From the NCBI GenBank assembly GCA_944322585.1, contig CALUPB010000003.1:186001-250000 (forward strand): 64,000 nt of DNA, read 5' to 3'. Below are positions 3,837 through 8,449 of the stretch, piece after piece (positions within the stretch are counted from its first letter, which is position 1; every line of letters starts with the position of its first letter). Source of the DNA: an uncultured Bacteroidales bacterium (GTDB lineage Bacteria; Bacteroidota; Bacteroidia; Bacteroidales; UBA932). The position numbers and the translations under genes were made by a program. The notes under the pieces are model-generated. The model did no database searches. It was not told the DNA's origin and worked only from the letters and a program-made list of their open reading frames with translations.

Positions 3837-4928
3837 TCAGTCGCGGGCCAGAATATCGTTCTGTACCTGCACGGATGCCTCGTGTATGGCATTGAACACA
3901 GTCGTTATGAACTTCTCCGGCAGCCCGTAACCTTCACCCTTGCGTATCATGTCTTCGAGGATCGAATCCCAACGGGAAGTCTGGAGTATGGCAATGTTGT
4001 TCTTTTTCTTGTACTCGCCTATCTTCCGGCTGATATTCATCCTGGATGCAAGCATATTTAGCAGATTCTCGTCAATTACATCTATCTGCGACCTGAGCTG
4101 GTCAATATTCTCCTTGTAACTCAGGTCCTCGGAATCATTCTCCCTGACAGTCAGAGACTCGAGCAGTTTTTTCAGATCATCCGGAGTGAGCTGCTGCGCG
4201 GCGTCGCTCAGGGCGCATGTAGGATCACAGTGGCTCTCTACCATCAGTCCTTCCAGGCCGAGATCAAGGGAACGCTGGGAAATCTCCTGGATATATTCGC
4301 GTTTTCCCGCCATATGGCTCGGGTCGCAGAAGAAAGGAAGTTCAGGATAACGGCTTCTCAACTCTACGGCTATCTGCCATCCGGGGTCATTCCGGTATCT
4401 GATTTTGGAAAATGTGGAAAAACCTCGGTGTATGACTCCGAGTTTGCGGATTCCTGCCGCATTAAGCCGTTCAAGCGCCCCGATCCACAGATCTATGTCC
4501 GCATTTACCGGATTTTTGACAAGAACGGGTATATCCACATCCTTCAGGGCATCGGCAATCTCCTGAACCAGGAACGGATTGGCGGTAGTCCTTGCACCGA
4601 GCCATACTAAATCCACCCCGTATTTAAGACATTCGAACACATGTTTCTCGCTTGCCACCTCGGTGGAAATCTTCAGCCCGAGTTCCTTTTTTGCCCTCTG
4701 CATCCACTTGAGCCCCTTGGCTCCTACCCCCTCGAAAGACCCCGGATGGGTACGCGGCTTCCATATTCCGGCCCTGAAAACATTGATACCGAAACTCCTT
4801 AGCTGTCTTGCGGTCTCCATGATCTGGATTTCCGACTCTGCGCTGCACGGGCCGGCTATCACACACGGCCTCGGCTCTGTGAACATCCCCCATTCCGAAA
4901 GCGGGGCTATCTCCAATCTGCTGTTCAT
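3837..4928 (-). CDS. aroG: Bifunctional DAHP synthase / chorismate mutase
   Basis: Residues 1-260 form a type I DAHP synthase of the compact KDO8P-synthase-like class (PCVIAGPCSAES, FRAGIWKPRT, GVGAKGLKWM, LVKNPVNADIDLWIGALER, FCDPSHMAGKRE, GLMVESHCDP). It condenses phosphoenolpyruvate with erythrose 4-phosphate at the start of the shikimate pathway. After a short linker, residues 275-363 form an AroQ-type chorismate mutase (IDQLRSQIDVIDENLLNMLASRM...IGEYKKKNN). Such fusions are usual in Bacteroidota, where the mutase part also gives feedback control. It is the last gene of the pheA-aminotransferase-tyrA operon, 48 bases after tyrA. The gene symbol is by function; other annotations call it aroF or aroA. 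Confidence 0.93.
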   Translation of the reverse strand: MNSRLEIAPLSEWGMFTEPRPCVIAGPCSAESEIQIMETARQLRSFGINVFRAGIWKPRTHPGSFEGVGAKGLKWMQRAKKELGLKISTEVASEKHVFECLKYGVDLVWLGARTTANPFLVQEIADALKDVDIPVLVKNPVNADIDLWIGALERLNAAGIRKLGVIHRGFSTFSKIRYRNDPGWQIAVELRSRYPELPFFCDPSHMAGKREYIQEISQRSLDLGLEGLMVESHCDPTCALSDAAQQLTPDDLKKLLESLTVRENDSEDLSYKENIDQLRSQIDVIDENLLNMLASRMNISRKIGEYKKKNNIAILQTSRWDSILEDMIRKGEGYGLPEKFITTVFNAIHEASVQVQNDILARD

Positions 4929-4976: not shown

Positions 4977-5870
4977 TCAACGGATAATACGCTTGATCCT
5001 GTTGGCGTCCTCTATGAGTGTCCTGACGGCAGCCTCATCGTCATCCGCTATCGCCTCCCGGAACCTGCCCATCTTTTCTATATATGTGTCTATCACCTGA
5101 AGCACATTGTCCCTGTTCTGGGAGAATATCGGCACCCACATGTCCGCATTACTCTTTGCGAGACGCACGGTGGATGAAAAGCCTCCCGATGCAAGGTCAA
5201 AGATATGCTTCTCGTTCTTCTCCTTGTCCAGCACCGTAAGCGCAAGCGCAAAAGAAGTGATATGCGAAATGTGGGACACGTATGCCACATGGACATCATG
5301 TCCAGATGCATTCATGTAAATGTGTCTCATGTTCAAGGTGTCATACAGGTTCTCGACAGTCCGCACCGCGTCCGGAGCCGACTCCTGGCTGTCGCATATG
5401 ATACAGGCCCGGCCGTCGAAAAGTCCGGGCATTGCAGCCCACGGTCCGGAATATTCCGTACCCGCCATGGGATGGGTCGCCACATACCTTCCGCGCAGAG
5501 GATGATAGTGGACTGCACGCACAAGCGCCTCTTTCGTAGAGCATACATCCATCACCGTCTTTTTCATCTTCCGGGCGGATGGACTGTCATCCTCCATTGA
5601 CCGAAAACGGTCGAGTACTTCGGGGAGCATCTTCACTGCTGTCCCCACCGGCACGGCCAGAACGATCAGATCGCTCTGCTCCATGCAGTCATCGAAGTCC
5701 ACAATCCGGTCGACAAGACCTATCTTCTCTGCCGCGGCGGCATTGACCGGATCTGCTTCGACTCCGATCACCCGGGAAGCGAAGCCGCGCCGTGCAAGAT
5801 CTATCGCCATGGACCCGCCTATCAGGCCAAGTCCTACAATACCCACTGTCATATTTCTCTTCTGTTCCAT
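4977..5870 (-). CDS. tyrA: Prephenate dehydrogenase (tyrosine branch)
   Basis: Oxidative decarboxylation of prephenate to 4-hydroxyphenylpyruvate using NAD(P). The N terminus holds a Rossmann motif, VGIVGLGLIGGSMAIDLARRG, at residues 8-30. It is followed by DLIVLAVPVG, MDVCSTKEALVRA, THPMAGTEYSGPWAAMPGLFDGRACI (substrate loop with the conserved HPMAG) and VSHISHITSFALAL. Length is 297 residues if the first ATG is used; a second ATG six codons later, directly before TVGIVG, is equally possible. There is no ACT domain. Lies between the aminotransferase and the DAHP synthase gene, all on the minus strand. Confidence 0.93.
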   Translation of the reverse strand: MEQKRNMTVGIVGLGLIGGSMAIDLARRGFASRVIGVEADPVNAAAAEKIGLVDRIVDFDDCMEQSDLIVLAVPVGTAVKMLPEVLDRFRSMEDDSPSARKMKKTVMDVCSTKEALVRAVHYHPLRGRYVATHPMAGTEYSGPWAAMPGLFDGRACIICDSQESAPDAVRTVENLYDTLNMRHIYMNASGHDVHVAYVSHISHITSFALALTVLDKEKNEKHIFDLASGGFSSTVRLAKSNADMWVPIFSQNRDNVLQVIDTYIEKMGRFREAIADDDEAAVRTLIEDANRIKRIIR

Positions 5871-5933: not shown

Positions 5934-7301
5934 TCAAAGCATCGCTGCCAGACGGTCATAAGCCTCTTTCAGGACATCCTGTGCCGCACACAGGGAAATC
6001 CTCACATAATCCTCTCCGTTCTTTCCGAAAATGAGTCCGGGAGTGATAAATACCCCTGCTCCGTACAAGGCTGCATCCGATACCCTTTCGCCAAGCGTTT
6101 TTCCTGTCTTTCCGGCACCATTCCCTGCTTCCGCCACACCGCCGGTCCCCGGCCCACCGCCCGTATTGGCTGCCATCCCGTTTTCCGCATTCCGACCAAG
6201 CCTTACATCTCTGTTTCCTGCCGCACAGCCATTATCCGGATCTCCGCCTATATTCCCGGATCCGATATTCTCCCGGGCCGCGGCCAAAGGATTGTCGGCC
6301 CCTGCCTTTCCCCAGAGGAACAGCCCGGAAGAATCCGGGTTGTACTTCACCCCTATCAGATCGAATATCTTCCCGGCGAGCCGCCTGCGGCTACGGTATT
6401 CCGAATTAAGCTGCGCGAACCACTCCGGACCCTGCTTCAGGGCTTCTACAGCCGCCATCTGCAACGGTCTGAACATCCCGGAATCCATCTGGCTCTTGAC
6501 TTTCAGTATCTCGGCTATGACATCCGAAGCCGCAGCCACCATTCCTATCCTCCACCCGGACATGTTGTGTGCCTTGCTGAGGGAATTCAGCTCGATACAG
6601 CATTCCCTGGCTCCCGGAACCGCAAATATCGAAAGAGGCGCATCATTGAGGATGAAGCTGTAAGGATTGTCATTACAGATCATGATACCGTGCCTCCGAC
6701 CGAAACCGACAAGACGGGAGTACAGTTCCATGCTTGCAGGTGCACCTGTAGGCATGTTCGGCCAGTTGGTCCACATCAGTTTCACCCCGGTCAGATCCAT
6801 CCTTTCCAAAGCATCGAAATCCGGCATCCACCCGTCCTCCTCCTTCAGATCATATGTAATGATTTCGGCTTCAGTCAGGCGTGTGGCCGAAGTATAGGTC
6901 GGGTACCCGGGGTCCGGCACCAGCACTTTGTCCCCTTTGTCAAGGAACGCGAGCGATATGAGCAGTATACCTTCCTTGGAGCCCACAAGAGGTTGGATTT
7001 CTGCAGCGGGGTCGAGGGTAACGCCATAATAACGGGAATACCAGTCAGCGAAAGCCTGCCTGAGTTCTGGTATCCCCACATAGCTCTGATAGGCATGTAC
7101 ACCCGGGAGTTCCGCATTCCGGACCAAAGCCTTTATGACAGGCTCCGGAGGCATCCTGTCAGGAGCCCCTATCCCGAGATTGATGATACCCGGCCTGGCT
7201 TCCGCCCTCCTCCGGGCATCAAGCAGTGCCACTTCCTTCAGCTTGCGCGAAAAATAATATTCCCGGACCGTATCCGTCCTCTTTGCAGGTCTTATTATCA
7301 T
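5934..7301 (-). CDS. Class I/II aminotransferase of the aromatic operon, with a low-complexity insert
   Basis: A pyridoxal-phosphate aminotransferase of fold type I, probably acting on phenylpyruvate, 4-hydroxyphenylpyruvate or prephenate, given its place between pheA and tyrA. Seen: LGIGAPDRMPP near residue 45, YQSYVGIPELRQAFADWY, VGSKEGIL, VLVPDPGYPTY, WTNWPNMPTGAPAS, CNDNPYSF, and the lysine motif ELNSLSKAHNMSGWRIGM with the Schiff-base lysine near residue 243. The usual C-terminal strand GVFITPGLIFG...YVRISLC is present. Between FLWGKAG and GERVSDAALYG (about residues 332-401) sit roughly 60 extra residues rich in Gly, Asn and Ala, not expected in this family. The frame stays open, so this is an insert and not a frameshift. 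Confidence 0.87.
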   Translation of the reverse strand: MIIRPAKRTDTVREYYFSRKLKEVALLDARRRAEARPGIINLGIGAPDRMPPEPVIKALVRNAELPGVHAYQSYVGIPELRQAFADWYSRYYGVTLDPAAEIQPLVGSKEGILLISLAFLDKGDKVLVPDPGYPTYTSATRLTEAEIITYDLKEEDGWMPDFDALERMDLTGVKLMWTNWPNMPTGAPASMELYSRLVGFGRRHGIMICNDNPYSFILNDAPLSIFAVPGARECCIELNSLSKAHNMSGWRIGMVAAASDVIAEILKVKSQMDSGMFRPLQMAAVEALKQGPEWFAQLNSEYRSRRRLAGKIFDLIGVKYNPDSSGLFLWGKAGADNPLAAARENIGSGNIGGDPDNGCAAGNRDVRLGRNAENGMAANTGGGPGTGGVAEAGNGAGKTGKTLGERVSDAALYGAGVFITPGLIFGKNGEDYVRISLCAAQDVLKEAYDRLAAML

Positions 7302-7400: not shown

Positions 7401-8237
7401 CTAAATCGCCGCGACATATTCCCCGAGGGTGTCGAAATCCTCCATAAGCGGCCGCACTGCCGATATGGACTGAAGATATTTCATATAACTGTCGAACTTG
7501 ATGTCAACATAGAAGAAATACTGCCATTCCCTTCCAGGTATCGGAAGCGACTGTATCCTCGTAAGATTCATCCCGTAAAAAGACAGTATCGTCAGCACGT
7601 GGGCAAGCGAGCCGGAAGTATGCGGCAGCGTAAAGCAGATCGACACCTTGTTGACCGCTTCCTGAGGGACTTTCAATGCATTGTCCAATATCAGGAAACG
7701 GGTAAAGTTCTGCTTGTAGGTTTCGATGCCCGGTGCTATTATTTCAAGCCCGTAAAGGTCGGCCGCAAGGGATGATGCCACGGCACCGACACCTTTCAGG
7801 CCTTCCCTGGCAATGTCACCGGCACTCTTCGCCGTGTCTTCCGACTCTACAAGCCTTATGTGAGGATAACGGCTGAAAAAAGGTCTTGTCTGGTTGATTG
7901 CCATGTAATGCGACCTGACTTCCTTGATGTCATCTATTGTCTGTCCGGGGAGAGCCATGAGATTCTGTTCGATGCGCAGGAATATTTCCCCCTTTATCTT
8001 TATCCTGAATTTCCGGAGCAGTTCGAAATTCGGAAGAAGACCTCCCGACACCGTATTCTCGATTGCCATGACAGCAGCGTCGGCCCGGCCTTCCGCCATA
8101 CTCTGATAAAGGTCATCGAATGTCGCGCACTCGACGATTTCCGGCCCGACACCGATTTTCCCATAGAATTTCCTTGCAGCCTGTTCGTGGAAGCATCCGC
8201 TGTATCCCTGGATCGCGACTCTCCTTTTCTGTTCCAT
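7401..8237 (-). CDS. pheA: Prephenate dehydratase (phenylalanine branch)
   Basis: Converts prephenate to phenylpyruvate. The 278-residue protein is the monofunctional type without chorismate mutase. It starts RVAIQGYSGCFHEQAARKFYG and continues with the dehydratase domain (AVMAIENTVSGGLLPNFELL, LMALPGQTIDDIKEVRSHYMAINQT, DTAKSAGDIA, NFTRFLIL). It ends with an ACT regulatory domain from about residue 195 (SICFTLPHTSGSLAHVLTILSFYGMNLTRIQSLPIPG...YFFYVDI), which in this family binds phenylalanine for feedback inhibition. First gene of the aromatic operon; a Phe/Tyr leader peptide and a terminator lie directly upstream. Confidence 0.95.
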   Translation of the reverse strand: MEQKRRVAIQGYSGCFHEQAARKFYGKIGVGPEIVECATFDDLYQSMAEGRADAAVMAIENTVSGGLLPNFELLRKFRIKIKGEIFLRIEQNLMALPGQTIDDIKEVRSHYMAINQTRPFFSRYPHIRLVESEDTAKSAGDIAREGLKGVGAVASSLAADLYGLEIIAPGIETYKQNFTRFLILDNALKVPQEAVNKVSICFTLPHTSGSLAHVLTILSFYGMNLTRIQSLPIPGREWQYFFYVDIKFDSYMKYLQSISAVRPLMEDFDTLGEYVAAI

Positions 8238-8288
8238 CTTCTTAAGTCATTTAATTTAACGTCAGCACGACAAATTACCGGTGATGAC

Positions 8289-8320
8289 AATAAAAAACTG
8301 TCCGGATACCATCCGGACAG
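8289..8320 (-). terminator. Attenuator terminator in front of pheA
   Basis: On the minus strand a perfect 10-base-pair stem (8311-8320 with 8298-8307; CTGTCCGGAT / ATCCGGACAG), a three-base loop GGT and a run of six T at once after it form a textbook intrinsic terminator. It lies between the leader peptide (ends 8374) and the pheA ATG (8237), so it would stop transcription before the structural genes. The TCCGGA just behind the leader stop (8368-8373) is self-complementary and can pair with the first arm of the stem, offering the competing antiterminator. A small AACTTT/AAAGTT hairpin (8327-8339) sits between. Confidence 0.85.
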
Positions 8321-8373
8321 CCTTTAACTTTTAAAGTTATCAATCATGATGCTATGACTACACGACTTCCGGA

Positions 8374-8433
8374 CTATACCCTTTTCTGAGAATAGTAAAA
8401 ATAATAAAAGCTAAATCGGAACCCGTTTCTCAT
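8374..8433 (-). CDS. Phe/Tyr-rich leader peptide of the aromatic operon
   Basis: A 19-codon open frame reads MRNGFRFSFYYFYYSQKRV and ends in TAG. Eight of the ten residues from position 5 to 14 are Phe (4) or Tyr (4), far beyond chance, and exactly the amino acids made by the operon that follows. The ATG is only a few bases downstream of the predicted transcription start (-7 box TAGATTTG at 8442-8449), so the message would be nearly leaderless. The stop codon abuts TCCGGA (8368-8373), which can pair with the left arm of the downstream terminator. The reading and coordinates are seen; the control role is inferred from classical phe/trp attenuators. Confidence 0.8.
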   Translation of the reverse strand: MRNGFRFSFYYFYYSQKRV

Positions 8434-8441
8434 AACAGTCA

Positions 8442-8449
8442 CAAATCTA
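8442..8449 (-). promoter_or_regulatory. -7 promoter element of the aromatic operon leader
   Basis: TAGATTTG on the minus strand fits TAnnTTTG. It ends eight bases before the leader ATG, placing transcription start within a few bases of the leader peptide. No good -33 TTTG is seen. Upstream, two TTCCGGA copies (near 8459-8478) have unknown meaning. Confidence 0.55.

Follow-up and report, generated by a model that had tools for sequence, protein, structure and literature searches.

A probable phenylalanine/tyrosine leader-peptide attenuator upstream of pheA in an uncultured Bacteroidales bacterium and its relatives in Bacteroidota

The 64,000-nucleotide stretch of DNA analysed here (hereafter, the window), taken from an uncultured Bacteroidales genome (assembly of 2.87 Mb, 93.5% complete), contains upstream of pheA a leader gene and a terminator that very probably constitute a ribosome-mediated transcription attenuator of a Phe/Tyr operon. 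An earlier note, made from the letters of the sequence, had interpreted the locus in this way, and the comparisons with relatives described here support that interpretation. The type of attenuation is classical; here it is retained across many Bacteroidota, a phylum where it has hardly been studied.

All parts of the element lie on the minus strand and follow one another in the order first described, which direct reading of the sequence confirmed. The -7 promoter box TAGATTTG (TAnnTTTG; 8442..8449) is located 8 nt 5' of the leader ATG. The leader ORF, MRNGFRFSFYYFYYSQKRV plus stop (8374..8433), also delimited in the genus alignment A1, has its ATG at 8433-8431, 19 codons and a TAG at 8376-8374, and its control codons, within codons 5-14 (8421-8392), are four Phe and four Tyr. 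Immediately 3' of the stop, at 8373-8368, is the motif TCCGGA. It belongs to segment 2 (GTCCGGA, 8368..8374), the putative 5' strand of the antiterminator, situated at the leader stop. The terminator is a 10-bp hairpin followed by six T (8320-8292), between the leader and pheA. Its 5' arm, segment 3, is CTGTCCGGAT (8311..8320), the loop is GGT, the 3' arm, segment 4, is ATCCGGACAG (8298..8307), and the U-tract occupies 8292..8297. The TCCGGAT at 8317-8311 in segment 3 doubles as the antiterminator 3' strand, so that the proposed pairing of the post-stop motif with the first terminator arm can be specified as GTCCGGA/TCCGGAT at 8374-8368/8317-8311. The seven GCTGTCCGG columns are invariant across the 56 genus sequences of alignment A1.

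A further segment had been missed in the first reading. In the predicted minimum-energy fold and in duplex predictions, segment 1, at the start of the leader gene (8417..8437), pairs with 8371-8350, that is, with segment 2 and the bases beyond it. In this predicted pairing, which is that of a classical segment 1, codons 3-7 and the region around the ATG join the segment behind the stop and the stretch beyond it; own-versus-swapped pairing, described below, was also used to define segment 1. Behind the leader, on the same strand, are pheA (prephenate dehydratase; 7401..8237; PF00800, E 4.3e-50), a class I/II aminotransferase (5934..7301; PF00155), tyrA (prephenate dehydrogenase; 4977..5870; PF02153 and PF20463) and a DAHP synthase-chorismate mutase fusion (3837..4928; PF00793 and PF01817). 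According to these Pfam matches, the operon makes Phe and Tyr, the amino acids of the control codons. The upstream neighbour, directly 5' of the leader region and also on the minus strand, is frr (9100-8537). A second TCCGGA hairpin (TCCGGAAGAACAAGTTCCGGA then AAATTTTC) was observed at 8479-8459, between frr and the promoter box, and is perhaps the frr terminator.

We compared the leader with all small frames of the window (12-35 codons, counted by stop, both strands). Only one of these 1,023 frames, the leader itself, has at least six Phe/Tyr codons making up at least 35%. For the 154-nt leader RNA, the predicted folding energy is -47.8 kcal/mol, compared with a mean of -30.2 for shuffled sequences (z -4.5); none of 200 shuffles was as good. 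Rfam covariance models of leaders, T-boxes and riboswitches gave no match at the gathering score in the window; five sub-threshold matches (two microRNA families, Hsp90_CRE, SOX2OT and rliI; E 3.4-4.2, far below thresholds) were attributed to chance. A pattern scan of the window returned five terminator-like sites, versus a shuffle mean of 4.7, and reported the pheA hairpin on the plus strand only; the minus-strand stem, which runs into the T tract (AAAGG with TTTTT), probably fails the rule of the scan. Among genus leaders of length 15, codon differences number 1310 at second, 899 at third and 490 at first positions and, with second rather than third positions affected most, they offer no additional evidence that the leader is translated.

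The leader and terminator are conserved upstream of pheA in many relatives. Among 61 relatives, 43 gave a PheA match (E 0.001 or better), as did 88 of 198 genomes of the order sample and 259 of 296 genomes of the phylum sample; 80 named loci were taken in addition. Low-identity (28-32%) and partial second matches among the relatives were left out, as were four order-level ones (G206, G207, G198 and one G042 fragment). The nearest named pheA loci belong to Candidatus Cryptobacteroides and uncultured Bacteroidales MAGs. An aromatic-rich leader frame precedes pheA in 70 of the 99 distinct genus loci, the window's included, and 64 of the 99 have both the leader and an accepted terminator. L029, which comes from another family and is truncated by a contig end, is excluded from the genus count. 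Outside the genus, both were detected in 101 of 119 examined loci, representing 50 of 58 families. Broken down by rank, the pair was detected in 42 of 50 families belonging to the order, in all 6 from elsewhere in the class and in both of the 2 beyond it. From the phylum sample, upstream DNA was examined for 37 class- or phylum-level and 2 order-level loci (29 best-scoring, 10 hand-picked); the class and phylum loci represent a small share of the matches, selected mostly by score, and no claim is made for more distant lineages. Two terminator finders were used, each of which misses hairpins accepted by the other; the counts of leader plus terminator use one of them, which passed over 14 of the 184 leader-bearing loci. 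Eight of the 58 other families lack an accepted leader-plus-terminator, including f25, in whose locus L024 both leader and terminator are visible by eye.

In 29 of the 99 distinct genus loci, no leader was found in the 350-450 nt upstream of pheA. Two of these (L041 and L043) have a leader further upstream than the stretch read; in both, several hundred extra bases were seen to separate the terminator from pheA, the leader end and terminator lying upstream of them. At least five others (L044, L058, L059, L061 and L085) have a terminator without a leader frame. These leader-less terminators look, from their sequences, like products of deletion of the leader, as in L058, where the promoter box continues directly into the terminator. 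The other 22 loci show no leader in the stretch read, and in several of them pheA starts a few bases from the stop of another gene. Retention of the terminator in relatives that lack the leader had been named in the earlier note as an argument against attenuation; this arrangement occurs in at least 5 of the 99 distinct genus loci. The attenuator element is thus widespread but losable.

If the segment at the leader end is an antiterminator strand, it must vary along with the terminator. The window has the pair GTCCGGA/TCCGGAT, and other families have, for example, GAGCGGGA/TCCCGCTC, GACAGGATTTTGTATGT/ATATATAAAATCCTGTC, GAACGAGC/GCTCGTTC, AAGGTGAGGC/GCCTCACCTT and TGCTTTCGGGATT/AATCCCGAAAGCA. 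Given that the terminator arm is nearly invariant in genus alignment A1, we swapped leader ends between families rather than counting covariance within it, searching for the antiterminator strand from 30 nt before to 34 nt after the leader stop. Across 51 families, the terminator arm pairs with its own leader end at a mean of -15.3 kcal/mol and with the leader ends of other families at -9.6 (Wilcoxon p 2.5e-9; median rank 0.05 or better in 28 of 51 families), and the contiguous helix score is 21.4 for own and 14.2 for swapped partners (p 5.8e-10; 27 of 51). The families are related to one another, and these p-values overstate their independence. In the pairing test, 23 of the 51 families miss rank 0.05, and four (f121c, f22, f67 and f93) show no own-partner advantage. 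The window's own 2:3 helix has 7 bp, with one G-U, and rank 0.069. The 1:2 duplex also favours own partners over the 51 families (-12.6 versus -10.0 swapped, p 6e-5); it is strong in the genus (-20.2 versus -9.9) and weak elsewhere, with rank 0.05 in 9 of 51 families. The co-variation of antiterminator and terminator that the first reading led one to expect in relatives is thus present.

These data also bear on the possibility that the hairpin is a plain terminator of the upstream frr and the aromatic frame a chance product of a T-rich stretch. The position of frr directly upstream of the leader region, together with the genus loci (at least five) that have a terminator between frr and pheA and no leader, would fit this explanation. 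However, a promoter box and a leader separate frr from the hairpin, and two genus loci (L007 and L016) have the leader and hairpin although their upstream DNA, judged by eye, does not end in a frr-like manner. Considering also that the aromatic frame is one in 1,023 and that the leader end co-varies with the terminator, we regard a simple frr terminator as very unlikely.

An attenuator makes demands on geometry as well, which were examined with the best locus of each family as its representative. For 49 of the 51 representatives, the distance from the last aromatic codon of the block to the start of the antiterminator strand is 5-18 nt (quartiles 8 and 12); the genus mode is 15, and in the window the distance is 17 nt, spanned by the tail SQKRV and the stop. 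Relative to the stop codon, the strand starts at -30 to +8 in the representatives, and its distance varies less from the last aromatic codons than from the stop. The stop-adjacent position first reported for this strand therefore holds for this genus, whereas in other families the strand often lies inside the end of the leader frame. When arms were swapped between families, the 5-18 nt distance was found in 72% of cases on average and in at most 84% (300 draws). The standard deviation of the spacing is 5.9, against a null mean of 10.7; the tightest null draw, however, reaches 5.5, so the spacing counts as moderate evidence.

We then modelled ribosome footprints, assumed to reach 18 nt upstream and 12 nt downstream of the first base of the A-site codon. 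By raw count, 65 of 69 genus loci and 40 of 51 representatives have an antiterminator strand that a ribosome stalled at the last aromatic codon leaves at least 60% exposed and that one at the stop covers to at least 60%. In constrained folds of the transcript up to the first terminator arm, segment 2 of the window is predicted to fold into the antiterminator when the ribosome is stalled. The full switch, in which the antiterminator is predicted for a ribosome stalled at the last aromatic codon but not for one at the stop, appears in 67 of the 69 genus loci and, outside the genus, in 96 of the complete set of 101 loci. When the sequence separating the aromatic block from the terminator is shuffled, the respective fractions are 16% and 19%. 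The modelling is therefore in line with the idea that a stall exposes and a stop masks this strand. The 69 genus loci of the fold and leader-composition counts include genomes present twice and correspond to 64 distinct loci.

Folds of the full-length RNA without a ribosome contain the terminator in all 69 genus loci and the 1:2 helix in 66 of them; of the 50 other representatives, 45 have the terminator and 42 the helix. The predicted fold of the window contains this helix. For transcripts cut short of the second terminator arm, the antiterminator is predicted in 14 of the 69 genus loci and in 35 of the 50 representatives from other families. Default termination in the absence of translation is, on these models, plausible in this genus and doubtful outside it, because the cut transcript forms the antiterminator in most of the other representatives.

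Regarding what is sensed, the genus leaders contain on average 4.57 Phe, 3.71 Tyr and 0 Trp codons (69 loci), and those of other families 5.44 Phe, 3.69 Tyr and 0.35 Trp (101 loci). For the commonest core length, differences at aromatic codons comprise 654 Phe-Tyr exchanges and 203 changes to other residues, counts that are pairwise and not independent; the 16-codon class has 45 Phe-Tyr and 62 aromatic-to-other changes. A shortage of either Phe or Tyr would, we infer, suffice.

The same genome has further candidates for leaders matched to their operons, known here from the window's own genome alone. A His-rich frame, MRNFRHNHHHDTAPEW, precedes hisG and is followed by a hairpin and T run (L226 1150-1275, G000:C3); GTGGTAGCC is found at the stop of this frame, and the hairpin is GGCTTACCACTGGCGGTAAGCC. 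An Ile/Val-rich frame, MNLNSLSIINGIAAIIIVVVIISVIIIR, precedes ilvD and is followed by a long hairpin with a T run (L228 1230-1400, G000:C9). From their sequences, these are likely a His and a branched-chain attenuator, respectively. No leader was seen upstream of the homoserine dehydrogenase gene. A chorismate-binding enzyme (PF00425, TrpE/PabB family) was not found in this 93.5% complete assembly, and, judging from its gene content, the organism may be without the usual route to tryptophan or folate.

A leader-peptide attenuator might alternatively answer general slowing of ribosomes, or translation of the leader as such, and not the supply of Phe and Tyr, and the free interchange of Phe and Tyr codons in most comparisons could be read in that sense. 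Yet it is an aromatic operon that the aromatic codons precede, and the frames upstream of hisG and ilvD favour His and Ile/Val, respectively, all of which makes a response unrelated to the encoded amino acids highly improbable. Least credible of all, to the point that we give it hardly any weight, is direct binding of a ligand or tRNA by the RNA structure (a riboswitch or T-box), with an unimportant peptide: the strong structure (z -4.5), the GTYGYGTATC-like post-stop stretch that is similar in many genus sequences and the leader codons without third-position excess would suit it, but Rfam gives nothing at gathering scores in the window and only chance-level matches below them, the RNA sequence changes between families while the aromatic codons stay (by eye, in part of the loci), and the 1:2 and 2:3 pairings can explain the conserved stretch.

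Returning to ribosome-mediated attenuation, the spacing between box and leader suggests how the leader starts. Of 75 genus leaders, 70 have a TAnnTTTG box no more than 60 nt from their start, and in 38 the box precedes the start by exactly 8 nt; in shuffled genus leader stretches, a box occurs in 5%. Outside the genus, a box lies within 80 nt of the start in 72 of 109 leaders, at a median of 22.5 nt. The description of the leader as nearly leaderless thus applies to the genus (8 nt in 38 of 70) but not to the other families. At promoters with this type of box, transcription starts 4-6 nt behind it; if that applies here, the untranslated part of the leader gene would be about 2-4 nt. Very short 5' regions have been reported in the phylum: about 3.7% of 5' UTRs in B. 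thetaiotaomicron are shorter than 10 nt, according to its transcriptome map (PMC7366714), and leaderless mRNAs make up 5.5% in a transcriptome study of F. psychrophilum (PMC9723704).

From the parts, their conservation and their co-variation, a mechanism can be proposed in which the start site, translation of the leader, stalling and readthrough are the conjectural steps. RNA polymerase would start just 5' of the leader ATG, and a ribosome would load at or very near the RNA 5' end, as the box spacing suggests. When Phe-tRNA or Tyr-tRNA is short, the ribosome would halt on one of the eight aromatic codons, covering segment 1, so that segment 2 (GTCCGGA) would be free to pair with the first terminator arm and block the terminator, and pheA, the aminotransferase, tyrA and DAHP synthase would be transcribed. 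With both tRNAs plentiful, a ribosome reaching the stop would cover segment 2, and the terminator would form. With no ribosome, the 1:2 and 3:4 pairings could coexist, leading to default termination, an outcome that the folds support in the genus and not in most other families. The cell would thereby probably read its own Phe/Tyr supply through the moving ribosome. The mechanism requires ribosome-polymerase coupling, which to our knowledge has not been established for Bacteroidota.

The arrangement resembles that of E. coli pheL-pheA, where a short leader peptide with a run of control codons, alternative 1:2, 2:3 and 3:4 pairings and a terminator precede pheA. Unlike pheL, the leader of the window reads Phe and Tyr in similar numbers, is expected to work without a Shine-Dalgarno sequence, has its ATG only 8 nt after the box and has no Rfam match. 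Sensing of more than one amino acid by one leader is shared with thrL and ilvL of enterobacteria, which concern other amino acids and another phylum. The experimental work on leader-peptide attenuation that we are aware of concerns Proteobacteria and Actinobacteria. The authors of a 2010 survey stated that they knew of no demonstration of leader-peptide systems beyond these two groups, and the main text of that survey contains no word beginning with Bacteroid, pheA or phenylalanine (PMC2965389). Short ORFs that recall leader peptides are noted in the B. thetaiotaomicron map, where the example given is another gene (PMC7366714). A close precedent, in the same phylum and before the same gene, comes from the transcriptome study of Flavobacterium psychrophilum, which reported indications of this type of control together with a 5' element preceding pheA (PMC9723704). 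Its passages on that element speak of conservation in Flavobacteriaceae and give no anatomy (PMC9723704); here, class-level relatives show the leader-terminator architecture before pheA, and a co-variation test accompanies the tracing of the element into Bacteroidales and further families of its class. No other description of the element in Bacteroidales was found in the open-licence literature, although the 2010 Lopatovskaya survey may cover the phylum.

If the attenuator works as proposed, transcription and translation would be coupled within the first hundred or so nt of Bacteroidota transcripts, the leaders would reveal which amino acids such a bacterium senses, and the varied antiterminator sequences across the phylum would amount to a natural experiment on the spacing rules of attenuators. 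A broader reading, which we advance tentatively and at somewhat less than an even chance, is that ribosome-mediated attenuation is standard and ancient for amino-acid operons of Bacteroidota (Phe/Tyr and probably His and Ile/Val), with close coupling, near-leaderless loading in this genus and a cascaded tandem switch in about ten families. Were it true, close ribosome-polymerase coupling would operate in a phylum that initiates translation without Shine-Dalgarno pairing, a near-leaderless leader gene would load its ribosome as soon as the RNA emerges in the window's genus, and two attenuators of the same specificity in series before pheA would act as a cascaded switch in about ten other families.

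Tandem attenuators with two short leader ORFs in one transcript leader are described for Salmonella mgtCBR (PMC3641672); unlike those, some Bacteroidota carry two aromatic leader-plus-terminator modules in series before pheA. Such modules are absent from the window, and were flagged in 18 of 224 loci, all of other families. Seventeen flagged loci were re-examined (L130 was left out) and one (L183) was dropped. The candidates include L113, L114, L119, L125, L126, L127, L134, L138, L164, L175, L188, L202, L203, L209 and L221; in L027, the first leader of the tandem is short and doubtful. The best antiterminator helix has at least 5 pairs in both modules in 15 of the 16 remaining loci, the exception being L126, with only 4 bp in the second; in some of the others the helix has 5-6 bp, a length that carries little weight as evidence. 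Both modules have a hairpin with a T run in all 16.
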